From the NCBI GenBank assembly GCA_951812345.1, contig OX638295.1, positions 1,188,759 to 1,252,758 on the forward strand: DNA of 64,000 nucleotides. The letters are read 5' to 3'. This document shows, piece after piece, positions 14,711 through 50,174 of the stretch (positions are counted from its first letter, which is position 1; every line of letters begins with the position of its first letter). The notes under the pieces were generated by a model. That model searched no databases. It was given only the letters and a program-made list of their open reading frames with translations, and was not told the DNA's origin. Source of the DNA: Rhodothermales bacterium. Lineage in GTDB: Bacteria > Bacteroidota > Rhodothermia > Rhodothermales > VXPQ01. The translations under genes were made by a program, and so were the position numbers.

Positions 14711-14753
14711 TCAAGTCTAGTTGTGTAAACCCACCACGTTGTTCAGCGCTTTA

Positions 14754-15012
14754 AGGATACTCTGACCAAAACCGCTTCGCTCAGCGCTTCACGTTCGTGC
14801 GTAAACGACATCATGGTTCCCTCGTTGCAATTTGCGAAAAACACTGAGGTTTCGGGCATCGCGGATGTGAAGCGCCCTTCGGGAGGCTGCGAGAAGCGGG
14901 CTGGCCGCGTCATTCCTCATTATGCGGGGCCGCCACATACATTGCTTCGTCATTCCTTGCCAGCGCACCCTTTTCAGCCTCTGAATCTTTGCGGATTTAA
15001 TCAGAGTATCCT
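14754..15012. mobile_element. Full-length TIR repeat, MITE-like (copy A)
   Basis: 259 bp, starting AGGATACTCTGACCAAAACC and ending with the inverted form TTAATCAGAGTATCCT. It is flanked on both sides by TA (14752-14753 and 15013-15014). Inside is the conserved core shared with copies at 41168 and 49918, including GAAGCGCCCTTCGGGAGGC and CATTCCTTGCCAGCGCACC. It encodes no protein. It lies between the broken helicase gene and the nucleobase permease gene and probably contributes to the permease promoter region. Confidence 0.85.
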
Positions 15013-34174: not shown

Positions 34175-35925
34175 TGCCGGATGAGCATGTGTGTCTGCTG
34201 CTGATCGTTTACGTTCAATCTGACCATGTACAGTCCGGCCGGAAGGCCCGAGGCTTCAAAAATCACGCGGTGCTCGCCCTGCGTTCGGAGCGCATCGAGC
34301 AAGCTGGTCACTTCCCGTCCCAGTATGTCGTATACGACAAGTCGTACATGACCGGATTCCGCGAGCGTAAAGGACACATGGGTGCGGGCGTTAAACGGGT
34401 TCGGTGCGTTCGTGATGGTTACGCTGGTGGAAGGTAGTTCCTTCGGAGGGGATTCTACCGGCAGGACGATACTGAGGAACGAGGGTCCTACGTCGGCTTC
34501 CGTCAACGGACGATTTGTTATGGGCGAGGCTGTCTGTTCATCGGCGCCGATATCGGGGGTGGCGTCCCGTGCCTGACCGTCCATGTCGGTGGTGGCGAAG
34601 GCGAGGGCTGCGGCGGCATTGAGGGCGGGGGAGGCGGCGGAAGGCCGCCACAATAACCCGCTTTGCGTCAACTGGGGGTCCACGGTGGAAATACCGTCGG
34701 GCTGATCAATGCCCAGTGTGCTCCCATGCATGATATTCGTGGCGTAGGAGATATTGACAGGGGTGTCTTCGTATTCGAAAATCGGCCCCATCGATGTCTC
34801 CACAAGGTTGCTGGCGATGGTCAGGTTCTCCGGGGGCAGAGACTGTTCGTTGCTTTTTCCTGCCCCGATGACGAACGTTTCCTCCGTATTGACGAATGTA
34901 TTGAAGGCGACGATTGCATCCTTGACCTGGAAATAGCGGTTGAGCGGCGAATTTTCCACCCCATTCACAACCGCCAGCGCGGCGCGGTAGCCCGTGCCGG
35001 TCAGATCCTGGAAGTAGTTGTTGTAGACTTCGTGCCGCTCTCCGATAATCCGAACGCCGCCCGTTTGGGATTTGCCTTCCCCCAAAAAGAAGTTACCGTA
35101 TACATGGGCCTCGTTGCCGTGGCGTAGCGTCAACGTGCCTGCCGAGCGACGGAAGGTGTTGTAGCGAAACGTGTTTTGTCCGCTTTTGTTGGAGATGATT
35201 TCGATCTCGCCATCGCACTCCTCGAAGAGGTTGCGTTCGACCGTTACAAAGGAATTTTGCATCGAGCGGCTGCTCGTTCCGATGCGGAGGGTTTCTCCCC
35301 CGTTTTTGCCCAGATCCGGGCGATGGCCGAAGTGGTTTTGATCCACCCGGTGATATGAGGGCGTATCGTTTGGAGGGTCGCGCAGCCAGACGACGACCGT
35401 GGCCCCGTCATGGGTTTTCCCGGCGAAATAACAATGGTCCACCCTGTTGTGCGTGCCGTAGATGGAGACCCATTTGTACTCCGTCAGTCTGTTTGGCGGG
35501 TTATAATCGGTGATGGCGCAATTGGTAAGCCGGCTATGGTTCGCGAGGCGTGAAGACGAACGCCTGAATTGGATAATGTGCCCGTCTGTGAGCGCTCCCC
35601 GGTCGAACCACAGTCCATCCACCTTCAGGTAGTCGCCGCCGATGCGCAAGGTGGACCGCCCGTTCAGGATGACCTTTCCCGGGGTTTCCGCCCGTAACGT
35701 GATGGTGTCGCCTGGGGCGCCCTCGGCGTAGAATGCGATTTGCGTATCCGTCCACACCCCGTTCGCCATCACAATGGCGTCGCCCGGATCCGAGTTCGAG
35801 ATGGCTTGAGCAAGTTCCGCCGGGGTGCGGACAAACCGCTCTTGCTGTGCGAACGCCGGGAGCGTCCACCACAGGACAAGAAGAACCGATGCGGTGGCCA
35901 GACAGGCCAACCGGAAGATGGACAA
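34171..35925 (-). CDS. PL6 alginate lyase with T9SS sorting domain
   Basis: 584 residues. Signal peptide 1-26 (ending LPAFAQ). PL6 beta-helix at about 28-440 with catalytic K247 (IISNKSGQNTFRYNTF) and R268 (LTLRHGN) and the Ca-binding-type region KNGGETLRIGTSS. Residues about 500-584 are a type A T9SS C-terminal sorting domain (ITNAPNPFNARTHVSF, LVVYDILGREV, PAGLYMVRL), so the enzyme should be on the cell surface. The start is a TTG at 35925; no ATG fits. The first ~430 residues are clearly paralogous to the neighbour at 31295-34174. Confidence 0.86.
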   Translation of the reverse strand: MSIFRLACLATASVLLVLWWTLPAFAQQERFVRTPAELAQAISNSDPGDAIVMANGVWTDTQIAFYAEGAPGDTITLRAETPGKVILNGRSTLRIGGDYLKVDGLWFDRGALTDGHIIQFRRSSSRLANHSRLTNCAITDYNPPNRLTEYKWVSIYGTHNRVDHCYFAGKTHDGATVVVWLRDPPNDTPSYHRVDQNHFGHRPDLGKNGGETLRIGTSSRSMQNSFVTVERNLFEECDGEIEIISNKSGQNTFRYNTFRRSAGTLTLRHGNEAHVYGNFFLGEGKSQTGGVRIIGERHEVYNNYFQDLTGTGYRAALAVVNGVENSPLNRYFQVKDAIVAFNTFVNTEETFVIGAGKSNEQSLPPENLTIASNLVETSMGPIFEYEDTPVNISYATNIMHGSTLGIDQPDGISTVDPQLTQSGLLWRPSAASPALNAAAALAFATTDMDGQARDATPDIGADEQTASPITNRPLTEADVGPSFLSIVLPVESPPKELPSTSVTITNAPNPFNARTHVSFTLAESGHVRLVVYDILGREVTSLLDALRTQGEHRVIFEASGLPAGLYMVRLNVNDQQQTHMLIRQ

Positions 35926-36000: not shown

Positions 36001-38355
36001 CTATTTCAGTAATGTGAGTGTGCGGTGTTGCACCTGATCGTCCACGCGAAGCCGGTACACATACAGACCTGCCGCGTAGCCTTCGAGCGAGAGGTCTACG
36101 ATATACTCGCCCGGCGCAGCGTGCGTGTTTGCAACGCTGGTGATTTGGCGTCCCAGTATATCGAAGACCTCGAGGGTAGCCATTCCCGGCTCATCGATTT
36201 GATAGGGTATGGCGGTCTGCCCATAGAAAGGATTGGGATAGTTCTGTCCCAAAGTCATCTGCGTGGGCAAAACGATCTCGTCCTCGCTCGAAACGGGTCC
36301 CATGGTCCAACGCGGGTCGCCCCAGCCCGCTTCCTGCAGAACTCTGTTGCCGAGGGTAAAGTCCAGGTTGTCCGGGTCTGCGAACATGGGATCCAGATTG
36401 AGGATATTGTGCTGCGTGGCCCCGCTGGACAGTTTGATGGGGGATACTTCGAACAGGTTCGAATGGGTAATGCTCGAGTTGCCTTCGATCAGGACCGAGC
36501 CTTCCGTATCCACGTTGCTATGGGCGAGGATGGTCTTGGTGATCGTCGCATTGAGGATGTTGCGAGGAAAGATCGCGCGTCCGTTGTTGATGCCGCAGTT
36601 GAAACAGGTCAGGCCATCCACTTTGAATTCCGGCTCCGGCGTGCTCTCGTCTTCGTCGCCGCCATCCACGTAAATGCCGTCGGCTTTCGTGTTCGAAATA
36701 GTCGAATTCGAGACCTCGAAATAATTGACGTTGTGAATTCCCAACGCCTTGTTGTCGCTGGACTCGTCCTTGATCCGGAGACCTTCCTTGCCGCTGTTGT
36801 CCAGCACCACGTTCCGGAAAATGACGGAATCGGCAAGCGTTAATGCGTATTGACGGAGGAAGTTGCCGTCGCTGCCTGCCACCACGTCATGCATGTAGCT
36901 GTCGTACACCTTCAGGTTCAGGCCGTCGGCCTGCAGGCCGCTCCCGTCGTCGTTGTCGTCGATACGCAGGAGGTATTTCGCATTGAAATCCGTCCCGGCC
37001 TGTCCGTCGATTTCTACGCCATGAAGCGTGAAATCGTCGTAGATGCGAAAGACGACACGCGTACTCTCGTCCGGCTCGTTGTTTTTGATGACCGGTTTAT
37101 CGGCCAGACCGTAAGCAGCCCGGACCGTAAGGGGGACTGTGATTTGGATATCGCTGTCGTTGAGGTATTCCCCTCCGCTGTCGGTGAGTTCGATGATGTC
37201 GCCTGCCGCAGCGGCTCCCACGGCGTCCATCAGCGTATTCTGGCCGGCCGCCACCTGGTGTACGGCGCCGCCACCGCCTCCGGAAGGCCACCAGCGCATG
37301 TCGCCCAGGTCCGAACCGTCTTCGCCCGCGCCGATGAGGGGCGAAGCGCTGGAGAGCGTGAAGTCTGCGTTGTCCGGATCGGCAAACATGGGATCGACCG
37401 CGTAGAGGGATTCAACCGTGGGCTGTTCTCCGCCTGTCCAGACGCCGTCGTCGCTGACATTGAGCGTGTCGGTGTAGGCGATGCGCGCACCCTCCACAAG
37501 CCAGGGCGCTCCCACCGTTTTGCCGGTTCCATTGACGATATCGTAGTTTCCGACCAGAATCGAATTGGTAATCTGGGCGTCTTCCACAAATTTGAGGTTG
37601 ATGAGGTAATGCCCGGCGTTGTAGATCGTTACATGGTCGATGAGTACTTCCGGCCCTTCCGTGTTCGGATCTTCGTCTCCGCCGTAGACGCTGATGGCGT
37701 CGTTCTTGATATCCCAGAAGGTGGAGTGCGATACCTCGAAGTAATTCACGTTGAAGAAGCCGAATCCAGGCCGGTCACTGTCCTCGTCGCGTACCCGGAC
37801 GGCTTCCTTCCCCATATTTTCGAACAGACTGTTACGTACAATGATAGAATCGGCCATCGTGCTACTGTAGGCGCGGAAGGCGTTGCCGTCGGCGCCGCTG
37901 ACGATATCGTGGAAATAACAGTCTATGATCTTCAGCACGTAGCCCTCTTTCACGTTTGCGGCGTCCCCGCTCCCTGAGCCGGTGCGGATACCGTATTTCG
38001 CTTCGTTGAGTCCGTCGAGCTCCAGCCCGATAAGGGTGAGGTCGCTGTACAGCCGGAAGATGTCCTTCGTGCCGTCGGGGCCGGTGTTCTGCAGCACGGG
38101 ACGATTCGTCAGGCCGTCCGCGGCCTTGACCGTCAGGGGAAAGTCCGGTTTGATTTCGTCGGGGTTTGTGTATAGCCCGCCGTCGGTCGTGAGCACGAGT
38201 ATGTCCCCGGGGTTCGCTTGGGCAACGGCCGCGAGAATAGTGCTGTCCCCCGCTGCAACCTCGATTTCGACCTGGGCCAGAGTGGGCGAAGAAGCCCATA
38301 GCGCAAGCGTGAAGATGGCTGCAAACGTCTGGAAATACGTAGCAAGTCGGTTCAT
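36001..38355 (-). CDS. Tandem-duplicated beta-helix protein with T9SS sorting domain
   Basis: 784 residues from the ATG at 38355 (MNRLATYFQT; signal peptide ends SSPTLAQ). Two homologous modules at about 29-345 and 362-690 are seen by matching blocks: PLTVKAADGLTNRPV with PLTVRAAYGLADKPV, FNVNYFEVSHSTF with HNVNYFEVSNSTI, and YGGDEDPNTEGPE with DGGDEDESTPEPE. Each ends with DPMFADPDN. The residues suggest parallel beta-helices similar to alginate-lyase-type proteins (PL6/PL31-like), but no PL6 NKSG/LRHG pair is present. A T9SS domain (LGQNYPNPF onwards) covers about 700-784. Probably a surface alginate-binding or alginate-cleaving protein. Confidence 0.75.
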   Translation of the reverse strand: MNRLATYFQTFAAIFTLALWASSPTLAQVEIEVAAGDSTILAAVAQANPGDILVLTTDGGLYTNPDEIKPDFPLTVKAADGLTNRPVLQNTGPDGTKDIFRLYSDLTLIGLELDGLNEAKYGIRTGSGSGDAANVKEGYVLKIIDCYFHDIVSGADGNAFRAYSSTMADSIIVRNSLFENMGKEAVRVRDEDSDRPGFGFFNVNYFEVSHSTFWDIKNDAISVYGGDEDPNTEGPEVLIDHVTIYNAGHYLINLKFVEDAQITNSILVGNYDIVNGTGKTVGAPWLVEGARIAYTDTLNVSDDGVWTGGEQPTVESLYAVDPMFADPDNADFTLSSASPLIGAGEDGSDLGDMRWWPSGGGGGAVHQVAAGQNTLMDAVGAAAAGDIIELTDSGGEYLNDSDIQITVPLTVRAAYGLADKPVIKNNEPDESTRVVFRIYDDFTLHGVEIDGQAGTDFNAKYLLRIDDNDDGSGLQADGLNLKVYDSYMHDVVAGSDGNFLRQYALTLADSVIFRNVVLDNSGKEGLRIKDESSDNKALGIHNVNYFEVSNSTISNTKADGIYVDGGDEDESTPEPEFKVDGLTCFNCGINNGRAIFPRNILNATITKTILAHSNVDTEGSVLIEGNSSITHSNLFEVSPIKLSSGATQHNILNLDPMFADPDNLDFTLGNRVLQEAGWGDPRWTMGPVSSEDEIVLPTQMTLGQNYPNPFYGQTAIPYQIDEPGMATLEVFDILGRQITSVANTHAAPGEYIVDLSLEGYAAGLYVYRLRVDDQVQHRTLTLLK

Positions 38356-38418
38356 GGCGTTTTGTGCTGAGTGGTTTGGATAACGACGGGGATGCGCTCG
38401 TACCGGCGCCTGATATGC

Positions 38419-38438
38419 ATATGCCCCTGCGGGCATAT
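38419..38438. promoter_or_regulatory. Perfect 8-bp hairpin in the leader of the beta-helix gene
   Basis: ATATGCCC and GGGCATAT enclose CTGC. It lies 64-83 bp before the ATG at 38355, between the operator-like palindrome and the gene. It may be an mRNA leader hairpin or a second protein-binding palindrome. Confidence 0.45.
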
Positions 38439-38460
38439 AGGACATATCATGATAATATGT

Positions 38461-38477
38461 ATGTTGTATGACAAGTT
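38461..38477. promoter_or_regulatory. FadR-type operator candidate, beta-helix/PL6 operon
   Basis: ATGTTGTATGACAAGTT contains TTGT-ATG-ACAA, an exact fit to the FadR-subfamily consensus TNGTNNNACNA. It matches the site at 49082-49098 (reverse strand) at 14 of 17 positions. It lies about 106 bp before the start of the beta-helix gene. Confidence 0.55.
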
Positions 38478-38551
38478 GAAAAAGCAAACTAAACCACAAG
38501 GATTTTATTTACAAGACGCTCGACGTTTTTATTACGCTTTTACTACACGTT

Positions 38552-41131
38552 TTACTGCACGCGCACGACTTTTCGTACGGTAATATGCTTTTCGGCATGG
38601 GTCAGTCGCACCAGGTATACGCCGGCCGGAACGTGCGCGCCATCGGAACCGCGGCCGTCCCAATGTACTTGCTGCTTGCCCGGGGCGCCGCTTCCTTCGG
38701 CAAGGGTCAGCACCTTCTGGCCCAGCAGATTGAACACGTCCATCCTGTATGTACCGGGTTTTTCCAGTTCTATGACGAACGAGGTGGCGTCGCGGAACGG
38801 GTTGGGATAGTTGTGCACCTCTAAACCGGGCGAAGCAGGCAGTTCGTTTTGCGATCCCAACACGTGTCTTCCGATCGTGAGCGAGATCCGGTCCTCGTTT
38901 CTGTCGAACGGGACAGTCGCACCGCGCACTCTGACCTCGGTTACATTGGCAGCTTCCGGCCAGGAGACCTCCAGCCGGAACGCTTGCGTCGTTTGGCTCG
39001 GTTCGATGATGAGCAAGCCCGGCGTCCCGATATCCAGCGCAAGCGTTGCAGGCTGCTCCGCCGTTAACGCTAATGCGCCGCTGCGAAACATGGTGGCGTC
39101 CCGGAATGCAAAGTGCGAAAGATTGTTGTCGGTCGCGCGGGACCACGCAAAGGCGGCGTCTGTCGTAAAGGCGGCGAGCGTCTGTTCTGCCGGTTCATGC
39201 TGGAGCAGGAAAACATCGGCCGTGTTGTTTTTTTCGAGGGAGGCTGCAACGTATGCGTCCGTGCTCAGATCGATGGCCGCAGGTTCGGGCCCGTCCTGGG
39301 GGCCTGGTAACAAGAGTTGGAGGAATGCAGCGTTTTGTCCCGTTTGCGTGACCTCGACGTACTGTTCGAACCGTTCGTCCTTGAACAGGCTGATATATCC
39401 GGTGGTATTGGTCACGGATGCGGTCGTTGGAAAGAAGAAGGCGTCCAGGCGGGCGTCTTCGCCGTATCGGTTGGCGAAGGGTTGCCATGAGGCATGATGC
39501 CCGCTGCGATCGAATCTGCCGCGTCCGTGCAGGTAGGAACGATACGTATGGGAGTTATCGCCTTTCAGCAGATCCGCCACTATGAAATAGTCCTCTCCAA
39601 CAAAACCGACCGAGCGAAAAAGATTGGCGTCGTTCGGACGGAGGTACCCGCTTTGTTTTTCTGCAAAGTCGAAAAAGGACGAATTGATATAGTGATGGGT
39701 GAGGGGAGTGACATTGTACACGTACGGCTGATAGAACAGACTGTCGGTAAGCGGCGGAAACCCGTCCGCGGTGACGATATTGTGCGCCTTTGCGGTGGTG
39801 TACCACGAACCGCGACGGTCGTCCGAGAAACCGTTCGGGCCGTAGCCGGCATCGGGAGCGAGGAGAGCGTCGTGGCCGCCAAGAAAGAAGGAGAGTTGGT
39901 CGGGGTGGTTATGGTTGTCGGCTTCGGCGACGCCGTGGAAGAGGAGATAGCGGTCGTTCGGGCCGCTTGTCCACTGGTTGCGGAAAACGATCTGTCCGGT
40001 TTGCAGAAACTGCGTAGGCGAGACAGAAGGAGGGGCCGGTTGGATACTGTCGTCAAAAAAGATGTATTCGTCGATTTCCCAGGTTACGTCTACGGTAGCC
40101 CCGGTGTAGTCCTCGTTGAAGATGTGGGTGTTTTCGTAATTCCACTGAGACAGGGCGGCGAAGTCGGCGTTGGGGTTAAGATCGGTTGGACTTCCATGGT
40201 ACGCCGCCGCCACCATGTGCGTAGGCGCAGGCTTGATATAGGAATCTTCCATATTAGGAATCCATCCCCGCCCGGTGCGTATTTTGATGGGCCACTCGAA
40301 CACCGGTTTGTAGTCCTCGAACAGGTTGACGCCGGAAACATTTTTGTAGTGCCACAGAAAGGGAATGAAATTCACGGCATTATACATCCAGTAGTGCCCT
40401 CCTTCCCGGTAGATGCCGTCGGCGCTGAACTGATAGCGGGTGACGGAGTTGGCGGCTTCGAGCGCGTACCGGAGCCAGTCTTCGGCGTGCGGGTGGTCGG
40501 TCAGGGCAAGCGCGGCGGTACCAATGGCCCAGGCGGGCTTGGAGCGATGGTTGTGCGGGCGCGGGGCCAGCCGGGCTCCTTCTGTCAGGTTGTCGCGCAG
40601 ATACTGAACCTCTTCGGCAATGCGGCGGCGGATTTCGGTGTTTTGCTCCGCGTTCAGCCGGTCGAACACCCAGTCGTAGGCGGCGGCGTAGTTCTGCAAC
40701 CAGGTTGCGCGGTAAATCTCGTCGTACGGTTTCTCTCCCGTCTGGGGAACGCCTTCGTAGGCCAACAGAAGCATCTCGATGGCCTTTTGAAGCGCCTGTT
40801 CGTCTTCTTCGATGAGCCACCAGAATGCAAGGGTTTTTGCGGCGCGCGGGCGGTCGTTCTCATCAAGGTCTCCGGCGTTTTTCGTAATGTACTTGAGCGC
40901 ATCGGCCCTGAAGCGCACCCACAGCGTATAGTATCGGGACGAGGTTTCCGTTTTTCGCGCGCGGAGGACGGGAATGTCGCTCGCAGTGAAATACAGCGAA
41001 GGATGTACTTCGCTTGCTGGAAGCACGGGGGTGGCGTCCACTGCGAAACCGTTGTACGTATCGTACTTCGGATGCTGCGCCCAAAGCAAGGCGGGGAAGA
41101 GGAAGGGCAAAAAGCATCCGAGGCGTTTCAT
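38552..41131 (-). CDS. Heparinase II/III-fold lyase (probable alginate lyase) with T9SS sorting domain
   Basis: 859 residues. Signal peptide 1-18 (ending LLWAQ). An alpha-toroid domain at about 45-370 includes RPHNHRSKPAWAIG (Asn/His pair as in PL15/PL17/PL39-type lyases) and the tyrosine-rich GGHYWMYNAVNF. A heparinase II/III-like sheet domain follows with HGVAEADNHNHPDQLSFFLGG. A T9SS sorting domain (HNYPNPFRDATSF, FNLLGQKVL, PAGVYLVRL) fills about 770-859. The exact PL family is not settled (PL39-like is my best guess); alginate is inferred from the locus. A full repeat copy ends 36 bp upstream of its start. Confidence 0.8.
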   Translation of the reverse strand: MKRLGCFLPFLFPALLWAQHPKYDTYNGFAVDATPVLPASEVHPSLYFTASDIPVLRARKTETSSRYYTLWVRFRADALKYITKNAGDLDENDRPRAAKTLAFWWLIEEDEQALQKAIEMLLLAYEGVPQTGEKPYDEIYRATWLQNYAAAYDWVFDRLNAEQNTEIRRRIAEEVQYLRDNLTEGARLAPRPHNHRSKPAWAIGTAALALTDHPHAEDWLRYALEAANSVTRYQFSADGIYREGGHYWMYNAVNFIPFLWHYKNVSGVNLFEDYKPVFEWPIKIRTGRGWIPNMEDSYIKPAPTHMVAAAYHGSPTDLNPNADFAALSQWNYENTHIFNEDYTGATVDVTWEIDEYIFFDDSIQPAPPSVSPTQFLQTGQIVFRNQWTSGPNDRYLLFHGVAEADNHNHPDQLSFFLGGHDALLAPDAGYGPNGFSDDRRGSWYTTAKAHNIVTADGFPPLTDSLFYQPYVYNVTPLTHHYINSSFFDFAEKQSGYLRPNDANLFRSVGFVGEDYFIVADLLKGDNSHTYRSYLHGRGRFDRSGHHASWQPFANRYGEDARLDAFFFPTTASVTNTTGYISLFKDERFEQYVEVTQTGQNAAFLQLLLPGPQDGPEPAAIDLSTDAYVAASLEKNNTADVFLLQHEPAEQTLAAFTTDAAFAWSRATDNNLSHFAFRDATMFRSGALALTAEQPATLALDIGTPGLLIIEPSQTTQAFRLEVSWPEAANVTEVRVRGATVPFDRNEDRISLTIGRHVLGSQNELPASPGLEVHNYPNPFRDATSFVIELEKPGTYRMDVFNLLGQKVLTLAEGSGAPGKQQVHWDGRGSDGAHVPAGVYLVRLTHAEKHITVRKVVRVQ

Positions 41132-41167: not shown

Positions 41168-41424
41168 AGGATGCTCTGGTTAAGTCCGCAAAGATTCAGA
41201 GGCTGAAAGGGGGGCGCTGGCAAGGAATGACGAAGCAATGTGGTAGGCCCCACATAATGAGGAATGACACAGCCAGCGCGTCTCTTTCAGCCTCCCGAAG
41301 GGCGCTTCATGGCCGAGACAACCCGAATCCGCCGTGTTTTTTGCTGATTCCGACGATGCAAGCATATCGTCCTTTACGCGTGAAAGTGAAGCGCTGATCG
41401 AAGTGGACTTGATCAGAGCATCCT
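41168..41424. mobile_element. Full-length TIR repeat, MITE-like (copy B, inverted)
   Basis: 257 bp, flanked by TA on both sides (41166-41167 and 41425-41426). It reads AGGATGCTCTGGTTAAGTCC at one end and GGACTTGATCAGAGCATCCT at the other, and its interior is the reverse complement of copies A and C. It lies between the FadL-like gene (import operon) and the heparinase-fold lyase gene, both on the minus strand, so it separates two transcription units. Confidence 0.85.
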
Positions 41425-41465: not shown

Positions 41466-42917
41466 TCAAAACCGGTACGTTGCGCCGAAGAACAGGCTGT
41501 TCTTGCGAATGCGATTGTAGTCCACGTTGGATTCCCAGCGATCCTGATACAACAGACGTTGCACGTCATACGTCAGGTCGAAGGTGACCGGGCCGATGGG
41601 CAACCCGAGGCCGGCGCTGAAAGCGTTTCCGCGCGCCGTTTGTCCCAGCAGGCCGAATCCTTCGATCAGGAAGGGCTGCGGATCCTGCCGGAATCCGGCC
41701 CGGATAAACCAGTGTTCCCGCAATTCCCACTCCAGGCCCAGCCGCACTCCCCGGATGGTTCCCCAATCGAGCCGGGCGTCCGAAAGACTTCCTGGATCCG
41801 TTAATGCTCCCTGACGAAATAGTCCATTTCCTGCAAGCGCCTGTACTTCAAGTTCTTCGTAATGGTGTATGAAATAATCCACCGTCAGCATGAGGTTTGC
41901 AGCTGGCCGGAACGCTGCTCCGGCAGTGAACCGGAACGGTAATGTGATTTCTTCCTCTTCCTCGACCGTGTGATTCGAGGAGCGCCCATCGAGGTCTACG
42001 TGGATTCCGTCATAACTAACGCTGCGTGTAAGCCGAATGGGCAGTTGGTACAGCACGCCGAGGCCCAGTACGTCCGTTTCCCAGTGTAAGCCCCCGGCCG
42101 CTGTCCAGCCGCTGTAATCCGAGGACCCGTTCCATCGGATGGAGCCGTCCAGCGTAGTGAACGAGTAATCGTGGGCATCCTCGCGGAGGAGGAATTGTCC
42201 CCGGCTGCTGTGGTGCTGGATATCGTCCGAACTACCTTTCCAGTAGGAAAAACGAAGCCCAAGATGAACACGCGGCAGGATTTGTAACGCCACAACAGGC
42301 GACAGAGCCCGGATCGCGCCTTCCCGTTGCCGTTCGAAAGACGACCAGACTACTTCTATCTCTTCGCCCGGATTAGGGCGGTCGACCGGAACCGGGCGAA
42401 ATTGGCCAATGTAGGGATCGAGTACGTTGTCGTTCCTGTCGTAATCGCTCAGATCGGCAACGAGGCGCCAGGCTATACCAACAGTAACCGTGCGGTTGCC
42501 TATAGAGAACGGGAAAACGCCCCCTGCAAAGGCAGGGTAGAATGTGTCCTGGGCGTGAGACCAGTCGGGCACGGAAAGGGCGTCGGAGCGATACGTTGCG
42601 GGATCGGAAAAGTAAAGCGATATGCCGGCATAGTACCGATTGGGATTCCAGTGTTGCGTTTCCGCCCAATTACGGGACTGCCATGCCCCGGCGACAGAAA
42701 GGGCAGGACGCGATATACTGGTCAACCCTGCCGGATTCAGCAACATGACTTCCGGGCTGCCGCCGCCGGAAGCCGCGAACGCCCCGCCCATGGCGCGCGC
42801 CCGTACCGCCACAGGGTCCTGTTGCTGTATGCCTTGTATCGTGAGCGGCTGCATGACCCCCTGAGCCTGGACGGCCGGGATAAGCAGGAGATTCAGCAAA
42901 AGGAGCCGGATACGCAT
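41466..42917 (-). CDS. FadL-like (OmpP1 family) outer-membrane barrel
   Basis: 483 residues, signal peptide 1-18 (AVQAQ). The N-terminal block RAMGGAFAASGGGSPEVMLLNPAGL matches the hatch region of FadL/OmpP1-family barrels. The rest alternates amphipathic strands and ends in YNRIRKNSLFFGATYRF with a terminal Phe for barrel insertion. It is the last gene of the four-gene minus-strand import operon, 9 bp after the PorV/PorQ-like gene. In FadL proteins the barrel passes hydrophobic compounds, so its job beside a polysaccharide receptor is unclear. Confidence 0.8.
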   Translation of the reverse strand: MRIRLLLLNLLLIPAVQAQGVMQPLTIQGIQQQDPVAVRARAMGGAFAASGGGSPEVMLLNPAGLTSISRPALSVAGAWQSRNWAETQHWNPNRYYAGISLYFSDPATYRSDALSVPDWSHAQDTFYPAFAGGVFPFSIGNRTVTVGIAWRLVADLSDYDRNDNVLDPYIGQFRPVPVDRPNPGEEIEVVWSSFERQREGAIRALSPVVALQILPRVHLGLRFSYWKGSSDDIQHHSSRGQFLLREDAHDYSFTTLDGSIRWNGSSDYSGWTAAGGLHWETDVLGLGVLYQLPIRLTRSVSYDGIHVDLDGRSSNHTVEEEEEITLPFRFTAGAAFRPAANLMLTVDYFIHHYEELEVQALAGNGLFRQGALTDPGSLSDARLDWGTIRGVRLGLEWELREHWFIRAGFRQDPQPFLIEGFGLLGQTARGNAFSAGLGLPIGPVTFDLTYDVQRLLYQDRWESNVDYNRIRKNSLFFGATYRF

Positions 42918-42926
42918 GACCCTGTA

Positions 42927-43928
42927 TTACTCGACGGAGAAAGAAAGGCCGAGGCGATGGACGCCTCCGAAAGCATCGCTCATGTCGCTGTAGGAATAAT
43001 CAAGGCCTAACTCAAAGGATCCGATGGATTGTTGCAGTCCTCCTCCAAAACTTAGCGAGGCCGTGTCGAAATTGTGCTGGTAGCCCCCGCGGAGCATGAA
43101 CCGCTCGATAAACACATATTCAAGACCGGTCGCCCATTGCTGATCGTAGTCATTGGGCTGGATGAGGTCGAAGGTGGTGGTAAGACGACCAATTCCGGAA
43201 CGGGCGAACAATCCGTTTGCGCCGATCATGTCCATGGCCGCGCCAATGCGGAACAGCAAAGGCGCAGGGTAATCCTCTTCTTCAAAAGAGACAGGCGATC
43301 CGAAGTTTATGACGGACGCCCCGACGCGCAGCGAGCGAAAGCCCGTTTCATAGTTCATTCCAAAGTCAAACAACAGCACCTGGCTTGAAGAGAGCCAGAG
43401 GTCTTCCCGCGCAAGTTTTGCGGTGAGGCCTGCCGAGAAGCGGTCGGTAAAGTTGCGGGCATACGTAAGACCGGATATCCAGCTTTTAGGGGAAAACGAC
43501 TGCCCGGTAAGGCCGGGGTTGTAGACCTGTGTTCCATTCTGATCCACGAAGCCGAGGTGATCCACCCGGGTTTCCTGGAAATCGCCCATGTCCGCGAAAT
43601 AGAAGTGGAAGCCCAGGTGTCCGAATCGGCCCAGAGAACCGCCGTAAGCCACTGCGTAGTGGGCTGCATCGAGGAACCAGTCCACCCGGTCAAGGGAGAG
43701 GGTGTGTCCGGTGGCGCGCGCCAGACCCGCCGGATTCCAGTAGATCGCGTCCGCCCCGGCGCCCAAAGCCACATAGGCTGTACCAAGACCCGCCGCATGG
43801 GCGTTAGGGGCCACTTTCAGAAACTGCATGGAGGACGTACCAACCTTTTGGGCCCAGCCCGTCGTCGCCGGCAGCAAGAGCAGGAGCACGATGCTGCATC
43901 GAAAGACTATTTTTGCGATGGCGCTCAT
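42927..43928 (-). CDS. PorV/PorQ-family outer-membrane protein
   Basis: 333 residues, signal peptide 1-26 (TTGWAQ). The block SSMQFLKVAPNAHAAGLGTAYVALGAGADAIYWNPAGLA is the hallmark of the PorV/PorQ family. Predicted beta-barrel; ends HRLGLSFSVE. PorV proteins carry T9SS cargo after translocation. It overlaps the upstream T9SS-cargo gene by 4 bp, so this copy may serve that dedicated surface protein rather than the general secretion system. Confidence 0.82.
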   Translation of the reverse strand: MSAIAKIVFRCSIVLLLLLPATTGWAQKVGTSSMQFLKVAPNAHAAGLGTAYVALGAGADAIYWNPAGLARATGHTLSLDRVDWFLDAAHYAVAYGGSLGRFGHLGFHFYFADMGDFQETRVDHLGFVDQNGTQVYNPGLTGQSFSPKSWISGLTYARNFTDRFSAGLTAKLAREDLWLSSSQVLLFDFGMNYETGFRSLRVGASVINFGSPVSFEEEDYPAPLLFRIGAAMDMIGANGLFARSGIGRLTTTFDLIQPNDYDQQWATGLEYVFIERFMLRGGYQHNFDTASLSFGGGLQQSIGSFELGLDYSYSDMSDAFGGVHRLGLSFSVE

Positions 43929-46210
43929 TTGATGACCACGAATTTGCCCCGGTATGTCTGTCCGTCCGATGCGTGTACGACGAAGAAATACACCCCGGAA
44001 GCGATCTCCTGATCGTTCCGAGTCACCTGAAACCAGGGGGTGGAATATTGCGCCGCATCATGTTCGATCGTTTGCACAAGCTGCCCGCTGTACGAATAGA
44101 TCTCGATGGTGGCTTGCTCTGGAAGTCCATAGAAGCCGATTTGCTGCCCTGGCGAGTTGTTTCCCGTTCCGCCGCCGGTAAAGCCGCTGTTCAGATAGAA
44201 TGGGTTCGGCACCGCATGGACCTCGGTGAGTTCTACGGCAGGTCCGAGTCCGGCCGTGGATTGCGTGAGGTTTGTTCTTCCGCTGACGTTGCCTGCCGCA
44301 TCCACCGATGTTACCGAGTACCATTGCGATTCCCCGACAATCGTTTCGTCGTCTATGACCTCGTACATATCTCCATCCACGAGATACTGCGCACTGCCTA
44401 CCGGCACTTCGGCCAGAAGCGTCCACGGCCCGATAGCGGCACTCGATTTATATACATGGTACGTCACCGGAGGACCCGTCAGGCGGGGATGCGTGAATTC
44501 CTCTTGCGCGCGTCCCCATCGAATCACCGAGTGCGCGAATTCGTTGTTGCTTATGACAGTGATGGGGGCGGGGGGCGGCGCGGGGATCTGGTACAGCCCG
44601 TCCGGAGCGTTGTCCTCGGGCCAGAGCGGAAGAACGGGAGGCTTGCCCGTATAGGCATTGTAGGCCATGTCCGCGACGTCCTTCACCGTTCGTACGTCGG
44701 AATTCACATAGTCGGGATAGCCGTAGTCGCCGAGGTAATTTTGCGTAAGAACCTGTCCCGAGGAAGGATCTTTCACTACGTCGTTCCATCGCGGGGCCAG
44801 ATGCCAGGGCAGTTGCTCGTCGATCACCTCGCCCAGCCCGCCGCCTTCGTCCCAATCGTTGGGATCTTCCGTGGCGCCGTACCCGACCACTTCCGCGTAA
44901 GAGAACTCGATTTTCTCTCCCTGTTCCAGGATGTAGGGACCGAAAACGATATGGTGACCGACCGCTTTATACGACTGGCGGAAATTGTATGCGCCCCGCC
45001 CGGTCCAGCGGAGCGAATCCGGGTCTTCCGTTCCGGGTGGAGGCGGAAAGACCGTTTCCCGATACGGGGTGTAGGTGCCGCTCCAACGGGTATACGGCAC
45101 CAGCTTGGGCATCATTTTGTCTTCTCGCGCATTTCCGCTCTCCACCTTGTTCATGAACGGTTGCTTGAGCGTACTGTCCGCGGTGATCATCCGATCGTTG
45201 GAAACACGGGGATCAAGGGCGAACGTTTCGCCCCGTTTGGCCAAGTGGTTTCTGTCGTAGAACAACATCTGGATACCGGGAACCTGAGGCGACATCAGTC
45301 CCCCTCCCTGGTCGCCCGAACTGGCGAATGTCGAGAAATACTTCGGTTCCGGCTTGCCGCCATCGGAAAAATCGGTGTCCAGACCATTGCCGTTGTTGAC
45401 GACATAGCGCAGCCAGCGATGGCGATCGAAATATCCGAACAGATCGTTTTTATACATGAAATCGTATTCCCACGTCCCGTACCATCGCTGGAAGCCTAAC
45501 ATCGAAGGGGCTACCCCGTAGTGAAAGCCGATAAGAACCTCATATAGCGTCTCGTCGGTATTCGCTACGCCGTCTCCGTCTGTGTCCCCCGTGTTTTCGA
45601 AAGTATATTCGAAAATGATCAGATCGTCGTAGTCCGGGTAGCTCCAGGCCCGCGTGGTGCGGGTCACGGTGATGCCGGTGTTTGTCGCCCATTGGGACAC
45701 GATGATCTCTTCCGCCTCATCCGGATCGTAGTTCGGGTTGAGCGTGCCGTCGTCGAGCAAGGGATAATTCTCGATCCGCTCGATGGAGATGGGAAAGGAA
45801 TAGACGCCTGCCACGGTGATCGGAATGTGTTGACCGGAAGACCCGCCAAACGAGTATAACCGCTCCGTAAGATCGAACGGATTGGCGTCTTTATAAGAGG
45901 CGGCGATGGAAATACCCCCTCCTATGATGTTATGCTGTCCGCTGTACTGAAGTCCGTCGATGTTGGTGGCGGAGTTGCCGGGCCACTCCATCAGCGGTTC
46001 CAACGTGATATCGTGGTCGCGGTAGTGCCACCTTCGCCCGATTTCGCCGGTGTTATAGACGGTCTCATGCAGCATTCCGCGCTTGTGCACACGCGACTCA
46101 CGGAGTTGTTGCCCCTCGACCGTGCCTGTACACAACAGGAACGGCAACGCAACAAGCGCGGTGGCGCGTACCGTCATGGCGGATATTTTTCTTCGTTCGA
46201 TCTTTTTCAC
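43925..46210 (-). CDS. Large surface protein with T9SS sorting domain (import operon)
   Basis: 761 residues, exported (hydrophobic region 14-33, ends TVEGQ). No enzyme motif recognised; the middle has repeated aromatic/Asp/Gly-rich segments with YPDYDDLIIFEYTFENTGDTDGDG, which may bind calcium. A fibronectin-type stretch (TYHVYKSSAAIGPWTLLAEV) precedes the T9SS domain at about 665-761 (VHAVPNPFYLNSGF ... ASGVYFFVVH). It overlaps the receptor gene and the PorV-like gene by 4 bp each. By position it replaces the SusD-type glycan-binding lipoprotein expected next to a TonB receptor. Function inferred only. Confidence 0.7.
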   Translation of the reverse strand: MKKIERRKISAMTVRATALVALPFLLCTGTVEGQQLRESRVHKRGMLHETVYNTGEIGRRWHYRDHDITLEPLMEWPGNSATNIDGLQYSGQHNIIGGGISIAASYKDANPFDLTERLYSFGGSSGQHIPITVAGVYSFPISIERIENYPLLDDGTLNPNYDPDEAEEIIVSQWATNTGITVTRTTRAWSYPDYDDLIIFEYTFENTGDTDGDGVANTDETLYEVLIGFHYGVAPSMLGFQRWYGTWEYDFMYKNDLFGYFDRHRWLRYVVNNGNGLDTDFSDGGKPEPKYFSTFASSGDQGGGLMSPQVPGIQMLFYDRNHLAKRGETFALDPRVSNDRMITADSTLKQPFMNKVESGNAREDKMMPKLVPYTRWSGTYTPYRETVFPPPPGTEDPDSLRWTGRGAYNFRQSYKAVGHHIVFGPYILEQGEKIEFSYAEVVGYGATEDPNDWDEGGGLGEVIDEQLPWHLAPRWNDVVKDPSSGQVLTQNYLGDYGYPDYVNSDVRTVKDVADMAYNAYTGKPPVLPLWPEDNAPDGLYQIPAPPPAPITVISNNEFAHSVIRWGRAQEEFTHPRLTGPPVTYHVYKSSAAIGPWTLLAEVPVGSAQYLVDGDMYEVIDDETIVGESQWYSVTSVDAAGNVSGRTNLTQSTAGLGPAVELTEVHAVPNPFYLNSGFTGGGTGNNSPGQQIGFYGLPEQATIEIYSYSGQLVQTIEHDAAQYSTPWFQVTRNDQEIASGVYFFVVHASDGQTYRGKFVVIK

Positions 46211-49038
46211 AGGTCCACGACCACCCCCAGGCGAATGGAACGGGGCGGGTTGCTGTAAATGCGGAAGGTCTGCAGGGCGGCAAGGTTGGGATTGTTGCTA
46301 TCCGGCAGTGCGTATTCAATGTCGTCCCCGTCCTCGTACCGCCGTAGCGTCTCGGAGTCAAGAAAGACCCGATTGTAGTTATACACCCTTACGTTGAAGA
46401 GATTAAACACCTCGGCGAAGACAGAAAGACGTGTTCCCTGTTGCGACACGCGGAGGGTCTTTGTGACCTTGAGATCGGTGTTGTGCTCTCCCGGGGTTCG
46501 TTCCGTATTCAGCTTGGCGTAATTATCGCCGAGGAGTTCGCTGGGCGTGTAGGGGCGCCCGCTCCGGCTGTTATGGAGTATGTTGATTCGGATTCCCCCG
46601 AGCGGATGTATTCTGCCGAAGCCTGGTCCCCATACATCGGGCGTGTTCAATCCGACGATGAGGATCAGGGCATGGCGGCGGTCGTAATTGAGTAAAATAT
46701 CCCGCGTGGAAGGCGCTTGCGTCTGGTCGTTATTCTCGTCGATAATCGGGCTGCGCCCCGTCGGCGAGGAGTTTTTGCCCGTGGCGACGGAGAAGTGATA
46801 GCGTACGGAACCCGACAGGAATCCTTGTCTTTTGTTCAATCGCAGGCTGAATCCCCGGACATCGGCGTAGTCCCGGTTTCCGGTGGTCTCGTACAGGTTA
46901 TCGTTGGCGTCAATGTAAACGACCCGCTGAATAAGGTTCTTGACGTCTTTATAGTACCCGCTCAGGTCCAGCGTAAAACCCTTGGCCAGCCCGAATACGA
47001 GTCCCACGTCGTAACTTTTTGTTTCCTCCGGTTCCAGGCGGGGATTGCCCAATCGCCGGGGCTCAGCGGTTCCCAGATTTTCATTGAACAGGGTGGTGCG
47101 CTGGCCGATCAAATGCTGCAGGCCGGGCCGCTTGAGGTAGTTGCCGTAGTTCAGGTGAAAGACCGCCCGTTCATTGATTGGAAACGAAAAGCCCAATCTC
47201 GGTTGTAGCCGCGCGACCAGGGGGGTCTCTGCCTTTGCCGCCGATTCCTCGTTGATCAAAGCGGGGTTGTCCGCATCGCGAAACGGGGAGAACGTATCCT
47301 GATAGTACTGTACGTTCTGATCGTAAACGTCCAGGCGCAGCCCAAGGTTGGCGATCATCCCCTGGAATTCCATCTTGTCCTGCACGTATACCGCGCCTTC
47401 ATAGGGTTTGGCGGCGTAAAATTCGCGCACCGCGCTGGAGCGGGAAGAATGGTTCAGGCGATTCTCTACGTTGATGTCGTAGAGGTTGCTTTGTATGCCT
47501 GCCTTGACCTGATGGTTGTTGGTGACCTGACTGGTGATGGATCCTGTCAGCGACCAGGTCCATGAGTTTTCATCGAAGAAGTCGTCGTCCATGACGCCGG
47601 TACGGAAACCGTCATCCCAGTACAGCCGCTCCCAGACCGCGCGGTCATAGATGTCGTCCCGGAAGCGATCCGGATCGATCACATCCACCCCTTCTTTCAG
47701 GCGGGTATGCATTCCATTGAGGTTCACCTCATAGAATGTGCGGTCACTGACGATCTGAGAGAAATTCATTCCCAGACCTGCCGAACGATCGAGGACCTTA
47801 TTCGCCCCTATCACCCGATCATAGACCCACCGATAGAATCCTCCTGAGGAATAACTGAGTTCCTGCTGGTAGGCATTGCCATACAGCCCGTTGATCTTGA
47901 GCTTGATTCCCGGGGTCGGTTTGTACACGTAGTTGCCCATGACCTGATACTGTCGGTTCGGCTCCGGGGCGGGCAGCATGGGCCAGACACGGTGGATTTG
48001 CGTTGCAATGAACATCCTGCTTTTGCTCGAAAGCGGGCCGCCGGTAGTGAAATCCACAAGAGCATCCCACTGGTTGTCATATTCGTACCCGATGTCGCGG
48101 TGCGTCTGCCGCCATAGATCGTAAGCCAGCTGTGCTCCCGCATCAGGGTCTACCCTGGATCCGAAACCACGTCCGACCGCACCCTGCCATCGGGGGCGAT
48201 CGTCGTTCTCCGGGTCCGGGGCTTTCCACCACTCCAGATTGTTCAGTAGGCGGATATAGGGATTCGTCGCCGGGTCGTATACGCTGCCGCCGAAATGCTT
48301 GTAGTTGGGGACGCGAGTGCGAAATTCGCTGCGGCTTCTCCATACGGATCCGCCCTCCTTGGTAGAGATGTTGATGACGCCGCTCATGGCGTTGCCGTAC
48401 TCGGCAGAAAACCCGCTTGTGATGACTTCGATCTCCTCGATCGCGCTCATCATGGGAGTGAAGGAGCGGGAAGAGTGAAGCGGGTTGACGATACCCATTC
48501 CGGCCAGCACATACAGTTCCTCGTTCGATCGTCCTCCTCGGAAGTGGCCGTCATTCACCTCGGCCTGTAGACCCAATACGTCCCCCAGATCTGTTACGCC
48601 TGCAATTTGCTCCACATCTTCGGGGCGGACAATCTCCAGCGTTGCCGTCTGATCCATTTCCACGTCGGGACGCTCGGCAATGATTATCACCTCATCTCCC
48701 TCGATGGTGGTTGGCTCAAGTGCGAAGTTCACGGTTGCCGTGCGGTTGATGTTGACGACGACCCCTGTTTGCGTTACTGCCTGAAAGCCAATGAAGGACG
48801 CAACGAGGTTATAGGTACCCGGCTCGATATTGAGGATAAAGTAACGTCCATCTCCGTCGGTGGAGGCGCCCCGAGTGGTTCCATCAATAACCACATTTAC
48901 GTTGGGCATCGGCGCGCCCGTATCCGCTTCCGTAACGACGCCTGTGATTTTTCCGGTCTGAGCGGCAGCCGGGAGGGCTACCGAAAGACCCAGAATACCG
49001 GCGAACAGAAATTGCCAGAGGCTATGGGGAGACGACAT
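46207..49038 (-). CDS. TonB-dependent receptor with carboxypeptidase-regulatory N-domain
   Basis: About 943 residues from the ATG at 49038 (signal peptide to PAAAQ). Residues about 27-110 are a CarboxypepD_reg-like domain (GKITGVVTEADTGAPMPNVNVVIDGT). The plug domain follows with VEQIAGVTDLGDVLGL and the FSAEYGNAMSGVINISTKEGG block. The rest is the 22-strand barrel, ending RSIRLGVVVDL. The preceding TTG at 49065 would only add 9 residues. A FadR-type palindrome lies 44 bp upstream. No SusD partner gene exists here. Likely imports an alginate oligomer; the ligand is inferred from the locus. Confidence 0.87.
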   Translation of the reverse strand: MSSPHSLWQFLFAGILGLSVALPAAAQTGKITGVVTEADTGAPMPNVNVVIDGTTRGASTDGDGRYFILNIEPGTYNLVASFIGFQAVTQTGVVVNINRTATVNFALEPTTIEGDEVIIIAERPDVEMDQTATLEIVRPEDVEQIAGVTDLGDVLGLQAEVNDGHFRGGRSNEELYVLAGMGIVNPLHSSRSFTPMMSAIEEIEVITSGFSAEYGNAMSGVINISTKEGGSVWRSRSEFRTRVPNYKHFGGSVYDPATNPYIRLLNNLEWWKAPDPENDDRPRWQGAVGRGFGSRVDPDAGAQLAYDLWRQTHRDIGYEYDNQWDALVDFTTGGPLSSKSRMFIATQIHRVWPMLPAPEPNRQYQVMGNYVYKPTPGIKLKINGLYGNAYQQELSYSSGGFYRWVYDRVIGANKVLDRSAGLGMNFSQIVSDRTFYEVNLNGMHTRLKEGVDVIDPDRFRDDIYDRAVWERLYWDDGFRTGVMDDDFFDENSWTWSLTGSITSQVTNNHQVKAGIQSNLYDINVENRLNHSSRSSAVREFYAAKPYEGAVYVQDKMEFQGMIANLGLRLDVYDQNVQYYQDTFSPFRDADNPALINEESAAKAETPLVARLQPRLGFSFPINERAVFHLNYGNYLKRPGLQHLIGQRTTLFNENLGTAEPRRLGNPRLEPEETKSYDVGLVFGLAKGFTLDLSGYYKDVKNLIQRVVYIDANDNLYETTGNRDYADVRGFSLRLNKRQGFLSGSVRYHFSVATGKNSSPTGRSPIIDENNDQTQAPSTRDILLNYDRRHALILIVGLNTPDVWGPGFGRIHPLGGIRINILHNSRSGRPYTPSELLGDNYAKLNTERTPGEHNTDLKVTKTLRVSQQGTRLSVFAEVFNLFNVRVYNYNRVFLDSETLRRYEDGDDIEYALPDSNNPNLAALQTFRIYSNPPRSIRLGVVVDL

Positions 49039-49081
49039 CGGGTTACGGCGGCGGTATGTGCTCAAGGCATCCCTGATTTAT

Positions 49082-49847: not shown

Positions 49848-49917
49848 TGAGTACTACGGACAGAAGTGGGTGTGTTTGCTACCCGGCACAGGCATGTCAG
49901 CGAACGGAGCCGGTTTA

Positions 49918-50174
49918 AGGATACTCTGATCAAATCCACTTTGACCAGCGCTTCACGCTCGTGCGTAGAAGATATTGTATATGCATCATTGAAATTAGCG
50001 GAAAACACCGCAGATTCGGGGCGTCGGCGGGCGTGAAGCGCCCTTCGGGAGGCAGAGAGGGGCACGCTGGCTGTGTCATTCCTCATTATGTGGGGCCTGC
50101 CACATTGCTTCGTCATTCCTTGCCAGCGCACCCCTTTCAGCCTCTGAACTTTGCGGATTTGATCAGAGTATCCT
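49918..50174. mobile_element. Full-length TIR repeat, MITE-like (copy C)
   Basis: 257 bp, starting AGGATACTCTGATCAAATCC and ending GGATTTGATCAGAGTATCCT, the most symmetric ends of the family. TA precedes it (49916-49917), but TG follows, so one side of the duplication has decayed. It fills most of the 427-bp gap between the membrane kinase gene and hemE, which are divergent, and so lies within the hemE promoter region. Confidence 0.85.

Follow-up and report, generated by a model that had tools for sequence, protein, structure and literature searches.

A TonB receptor operon with a type IX secretion cargo and a linked PorV-family gene: a candidate importer of uronic oligosaccharides in Rhodothermales and other phyla

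The known lidded TonB-dependent importers of Bacteroidota, SusCD and BtuBG, use surface lipoproteins. SusCD (RagAB and relatives) joins a TonB receptor to an extracellular partner, and its loci also encode enzymes that degrade polysaccharides; BtuBG, the vitamin B12 importer of Bacteroides, sets a precedent for a lid on a TonB receptor outside the SusC family (PMC10404256). Here we analyse a four-gene operon of a Rhodothermales bacterium in which a TonB receptor gene is followed by genes for a cargo of the type IX secretion system (T9SS), a PorV-family barrel and a FadL-fold barrel. It lies at 41466-49038 of a 64,000-nucleotide stretch of DNA (hereafter the window), which covers positions 1188759-1252758 of a 2.82-Mb single-contig genome. 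We propose, at a probability of roughly 60%, that this operon encodes a TonB-dependent uptake system for uronic oligosaccharides. It would comprise a bracing barrel and a surface partner that is not a lipoprotein but is delivered by the T9SS and held by the PorV-family protein.

On the secretion side, type A sorting domains are described as all using one PorV, and type B cargos as having cognate PorP/SprF shuttles (PMC12618676, PMC10202324); PorU and PorZ are reported to keep their sorting domains, on PorV and PorQ respectively (PMC10202324). The operon resembles the type B arrangement in that the cargo gene stands directly before its own putative outer-membrane shuttle gene. Here, however, the sorting domain is type A-like, the shuttle belongs to the PorV family and the first gene of the operon encodes a TonB receptor. 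With the PorU-PorV and PorZ-PorQ pairs it would share a type A-like sorting domain retained on a PorV/PorQ-family barrel, but these pairs are part of the secretion machine, whereas here many parallel copies are coupled to nutrient receptors.

Gene order across phyla and flanking enzymes

In transcription order, and all on the minus strand, the operon comprises the TonB-dependent receptor (46207-49038; ATG start, with an in-frame TTG at 49065), the 761-residue T9SS cargo (43925-46210; GTG start), which we propose as the glycan-binding surface partner of the receptor, a PorV/PorQ-family barrel (42927-43928), its proposed cognate shuttle and anchor, and a FadL-fold barrel (41466-42917), a proposed accessory or docking barrel. 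Overlaps of 4 bp join receptor to cargo (46207-46210) and cargo to PorV-family gene (43925-43928), and a gap of 9 bp (42918-42926) precedes the last barrel. An initial annotation of the window had described just such a tightly coupled set, and all its open reading frames and spacings match exactly. It had also seen a T9SS-sorted protein at the position of SusD, and a PorV/PorQ protein and a FadL-family barrel as additions. Both descriptions hold: the type A sorting domain of the cargo is above cut-off, the locus has no SusD (the only one in the genome is about 0.87 Mb away), the third gene is above the NF033709 cut-off and the AlphaFold model of the fourth has the FadL fold.

We scanned an alignment of the cargo against a set of 84,980 species, each represented by a single genome, and searched each resulting locus with the four family profiles; since the cargo was the anchor, the other three genes were free to vary. 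This yielded 80 loci with related cargos, which belong to Rhodothermota, Ignavibacteriota, Calditrichota, Neomarinimicrobiota, KSB1 and unplaced 'Bacteroidetes' bins. All four genes are present in the same order and strand in 67 of these; in another 12 a contig end truncates the locus, and all genes within the available part are there; and a single one differs (L091, from Neomarinimicrobiota, which has a partial receptor and neither PorV nor barrel). The four-gene set thus represents more than chance coupling, as 67 of the 68 related loci with complete DNA preserve its order. Median intergenic gaps in the related loci are 18, 9 and 2.5 bp. An artefact of close relatedness was ruled out, with cargo identities down to about 36% and loci from several phyla; several families within the window's own taxonomic order keep the gene order as well. 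Receptor and cargo identities rank clades differently, which raised the suspicion that the operon is a mosaic; the unrooted trees hold just three clades and show no conflict. One Ignavibacteriota clade (L086, L088, L090, L093, L096, L100, L101, L103 and L107) has a conserved 291-residue protein without Pfam match after the operon, and usually a small barrel of 260 residues as well.

The receptor, which is the conserved first gene in the relatives' loci, matched PF00593 (7e-25) and CarboxypepD_reg (2e-19) in the family search, and has an N-terminal carboxypeptidase-regulatory-like domain and a plug. It scores 63.7 bits against the SusC/RagA subfamily TIGR04056, for a cut-off of 368, and thus does not belong to the SusC family by that cut-off. 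While the locus shares with SusCD its TonB receptor, a proposed extracellular partner and its polysaccharide-degrading enzymes, this partner is a T9SS cargo with a predicted supersandwich fold rather than a SusD lipoprotein, the receptor is far under the SusC cut-off and two extra barrels are present. The comparison with BtuBG is similar: in both cases a non-SusC TonB receptor would be capped by a non-SusD surface protein, but BtuG is a surface lipoprotein, whereas here there is no conserved lipid-anchor cysteine, and a T9SS sorting domain instead. The module would probably work like SusCD or BtuBG, yet it is not a SusCD member, its receptor being under the SusC cut-off and SusD being absent from the locus.

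Several carbohydrate-active genes on the minus strand accompany the operon in the window. The nearest encodes a T9SS-type alginate lyase with a heparinase II/III-like fold (38552-41131; alginate lyase structures 6jp4/6jph, E 2e-165) and an ordinary type A sorting domain (TIGR04183, 3e-9). It is followed by a DUF5123 beta-helix protein (36001-38499) and by two alginate lyases of polysaccharide lyase (PL) family 6, at 34171-35925 and 31295-34174, the latter with a second beta-helix region; the DUF5123 protein and the first PL6 enzyme also carry ordinary type A sorting domains. Both PL6 genes match AlyGC far better than chondroitinase B (3e-100 to AlyGC, structure 5gkd, against 6.5e-31 for the first; 1.7e-109 to AlyGC for the second). 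Because the window enzymes match AlyGC and a solved alginate lyase, we assign the locus to alginate from their sequences.

Of the 54 loci that span 14 kb or more, 50 have alginate- or pectin-type enzymes. Taken over the whole set, PL6 or the heparinase fold is found in 37 loci, DUF5123 alone in 11 and the pectin type in 12; no locus combines the alginate and pectin types, and every locus enzyme (122 of 122) lies on the operon strand. The alginate type consists of PL6, the heparinase/oligoalginate-lyase fold and the DUF5123 beta-helix, often with GntR-FCD, major facilitator superfamily or tripartite ATP-independent periplasmic (TRAP) transporters and short-chain dehydrogenases; the pectin type consists of glycoside hydrolase (GH) families GH28 and GH88/105, PL9-like enzymes and LacI. 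In the cargo tree the substrate label changes only once (SH-aLRT 100), and none of 500 shuffles gave so low a number. At this switch the cargo has, in relative terms, the longest branch: the pectin-clade stem accounts for 4.0% of tree length for the cargo, versus 2.2% for the receptor, 1.7% for PorV and 2.5% for the barrel, a hint, from four pectin loci, that the cargo adapted most.

The cargo, its sorting domain and the PorV-family gene

The AlphaFold2 model of the cargo, built with 68 window-and-locus sequences, has a predicted local distance difference test score (pLDDT) of 87.6. It starts with a beta-supersandwich domain (44576-46111, minus strand; residues 34-545), continues with an FN3-like domain (44246-44560; about residues 551-655; Foldseek to tandem FN3 domains, E 1e-6) and closes with a type A-like sorting domain of what we call the module class (43928-44230; residues 661-761), which ends in GKFVVIK. 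In this predicted model the supersandwich resembles the accessory domain found at the N-terminus of GH94 phosphorylases, GH116 glucosidases and dextran dextrinase, with VIA-align Z scores of 15-20 across some 255-290 residues (root mean square deviation 3.3-4.3). PorU and PorZ are among the proteins whose structures resemble the C-terminal part, and a profile of the cargo had the PorZ sorting domain as its sole match by sequence in the PDB (E 0.03). Ortholog signal peptides end in A-x-A-Q style, without conserved cysteine; the cargo lacks a conserved lipid-anchor cysteine and therefore is not a SusD-like lipoprotein.

Is the cargo an unrecognised surface enzyme, such as a lyase, an epimerase or a mutarotase-like protein, making the module an enzyme plus transporter pair? 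The supersandwich (galactose-mutarotase-like) fold does include enzymes, and invariant acidic and aromatic residues are present. However, the best structural matches are N-terminal domains of GH94/GH116 enzymes, where catalysis takes place elsewhere, and the catalytic (alpha/alpha)6 barrel of such enzymes is absent from the model, in which FN3 and sorting domains come after the supersandwich. The cargo has no match to an enzyme family in Pfam either, and a Pfam search of ten paralogous cargos returned no match. An enzymatic cargo thus appears improbable.

The cargo scores 26.2 bits against TIGR04183, just above the cut-off of 23 for a type A sorting domain, and is below cut-off for the type B-type Pfam family CHU_C. 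Its sorting domain is not of the ordinary class used by the other type A cargos of the genome, which is also the class carried by the lyases and other enzymes of these loci. We built profiles from the cargos of four-gene operons only and tested them on those of three-gene TonB-cargo-PorV units (see below), and the reverse, with ordinary sorting domains held out. With the four-gene profile, 29 of the 30 cargos from three-gene units were placed in the module class and not in the ordinary one, with the three-gene profile 76 of 77 four-gene cargos were, and among the held-out other sorting domains 1 of 81 falls into the module class. For module sorting domains, the profile of the other module set outscores the ordinary profile by a median of about 39 bits. 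This cross-training rules out that the classes are a training artefact. Judged by these profiles, type A domains fall into two coexisting kinds, one of which is regularly encoded next to a PorV-family gene.

The PorV-family gene itself matches NF033709 (4e-54), exceeds the PorV_fam subfamily cut-off (184 bits against 90) and finds the PorV structure 6h3i in a profile search (1.8e-21). It is not the canonical PorV, scoring 59.8 bits to the PorV equivalog for a cut-off of 250, and it is under the PorQ and PorV2 cut-offs too. The PorP family, whose members shuttle type B cargos in the PorP/SprF system, gives 24.9 bits for a cut-off of 90.6. The PorV proteins of the modules do not form one clade in the tree (five label changes), and for this reason we claim no single origin for them.

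Related modules in the genome and the fourth barrel

The genome has 17 PorV-family matches. In 12 cases the gene stands third on its strand, after those of a TonB receptor and a T9SS cargo, as in the window's operon. The remaining ones include the canonical PorV, beside PorU (285.5 bits), and PorQ; SprA, PorU, canonical PorV and PorQ are all present. There are thus 12 TonB-cargo-PorV modules versus one SusD in this genome. Other genomes of the taxonomic order have 0-7 SusD matches, and the module occurs about ten and twelve times in two further complete genomes of the order. Paralogous cargos of about 660-830 residues share part of the N-terminal domain.

Genes for a CBM20 protein and a GH53 enzyme, each of which carries an ordinary sorting domain, follow one of these modules (L019, genome positions 2138000-2154000), and such neighbours suggest that glycans may be a common theme of the modules. 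A gene for an FG-GAP/UnbV_ASPIC protein lies in the region of another (L012, 2052000-2070000). The PorV-family genes of L133 and L151, which come from two other genomes, show a different arrangement, with a module-class sorting domain elsewhere in the locus.

Among the modules of this genome, the FadL-fold gene is found solely in that of the window. By sequence it is weakly FadL-like or BamG-like and below the cut-off of PF03349 (FadL), while its AlphaFold2 model (pLDDT 86.8) folds like FadL (Z 32-34 to FadL and CymD; Z 32 to BamG). FadL residue 1 aligns with residue 29 of the predicted model, about ten residues into the predicted mature protein. The NPA motif lies at mature residue 42-43, versus 33 in FadL. 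The N-terminal tail is thus about ten residues longer than the short N-terminus of FadL channels, as in BamG, where this extension threads the lateral opening and sets the protein apart from FadL channels (PMC12578637, PMC12611786). BamG, which anchors surface proteins in the beta-barrel assembly machinery (BAM) of Bacteroidota, shares the FadL-fold barrel and the extended tail with our fourth protein, but the operon barrel scores 31-41 bits to the BamG family (40.5 to the equivalog; cut-off 250), whereas a separate gene of the genome scores 224 bits, itself just below that cut-off. The presence of this separate gene rules out the operon barrel as a BAM subunit.

The FadL fold could also indicate a genuine channel, either for the oligosaccharide or, as in the FadL type, for another molecule, in which case the TonB receptor would serve a different nutrient. 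This is very improbable given that the gene is missing from the 11 other modules of the genome, where the receptor is always there, and that its tail is about ten residues longer than that of FadL channels, the feature which in BamG threads the lateral opening.

The window also contains a dispersed intergenic repeat of 245-255 bp at 41169-41423, with more copies near 14752-15000 and 49916-50160. It resembles a miniature inverted-repeat transposable element, with terminal inverted repeats of 19 bp that match imperfectly (GGATGCTCTGATCAAGTCC / GGATGCTCTGGTTAAGTCC). About 40 copies in the genome, of 194 candidates, scored at 80-100% identity, and Rfam had no match for it.

Proposed mechanism and significance

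The operon would encode an outer-membrane importer, whose substrate would be alginate oligosaccharides in this genome and pectin in a sister clade. Lyases secreted by the T9SS would cleave the polymer extracellularly. The cargo would reach the surface through SprA, carried by the PorV-family barrel of the operon, which would recognise the special class of type A sorting domain, and would probably stay on this barrel, as PorU and PorZ do on PorV and PorQ, respectively. The supersandwich domain of the cargo would bind the oligosaccharide and present it to the TonB receptor, or cap this receptor as a lid, and import would then use TonB energy. The FadL-fold barrel, with its BamG-like tail, would probably brace receptor, PorV barrel and surface protein, rather than transport hydrophobic molecules.

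A number of points weigh against this reading. Supersandwich domains within glycosidases are often structural, and most of the long paralogous cargos, of about 1050-1330 residues, share the sorting domain alone, so that not every module has the partner domain. The contrast in branch length at the substrate switch comes from four pectin loci. Finally, cargo-receptor contact and sugar binding by the cargo are steps that we infer. If the contact does not take place, the operon may reflect co-regulation only: the receptor would import alginate fragments alone, the cargo would be an independent surface glycan-binding protein holding the cell on the polymer, and the PorV would be its exporter. SusCD loci commonly have surface glycan-binding proteins that are separate from the lid (SusE/F). 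Linked shuttles are likewise found with type B adhesins (PMC12618676). However, the strict gene order in five phylum-level groups and the 12 modules in one genome favour a stoichiometric complex, and the locus offers no other receptor partner. We therefore hold mere co-regulation to be unlikely, and retain the lidded importer as our preferred reading.

Much of the initial annotation survives this analysis. Its view of a glycan uptake system is strongly supported by the flanking alginate and pectin enzymes, and its idea that the cargo has a PorV-like shuttle to itself gains support from the PorV-family gene in the operon and from the distinct class of sorting domain. Two outcomes would have spoken against it, dispersal of the four genes in relatives and a clear unrelated enzyme fold in the cargo; neither was seen, as the neighbourhood search found the genes together across phyla, and the cargo combines an accessory carbohydrate-enzyme domain, devoid of a catalytic barrel, with an FN3 and a sorting domain. 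The part that does not stand is the peculiarity of the unit to this locus, since the TonB-cargo-PorV core occurs 12 times in the genome and the FadL-fold gene is an added part.

We found no earlier description of the TonB-cargo-PorV unit in open-licence full texts, which is weak evidence of novelty. The chances appear even that the module represents a second type of TonB-driven nutrient importer with a lid, present across the Fibrobacterota-Chlorobiota-Bacteroidota (FCB) group, with a T9SS cargo as partner and a PorV-family barrel of its own acting as carrier and then as membrane anchor. Present in 12 copies in one genome and in several phyla, the module indicates a different build of nutrient importer and many dedicated PorV shuttles. 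If the module is indeed such an importer, with carrier and anchor barrels of its own, the one-PorV rule for type A sorting domains holds for part of the FCB group only. The recognition of polysaccharide utilisation loci in these phyla would change, with no SusD to look for, while many 'PorV/PorQ family protein' annotations become testable parts, and the question of why PorV-family genes multiply becomes directly testable.

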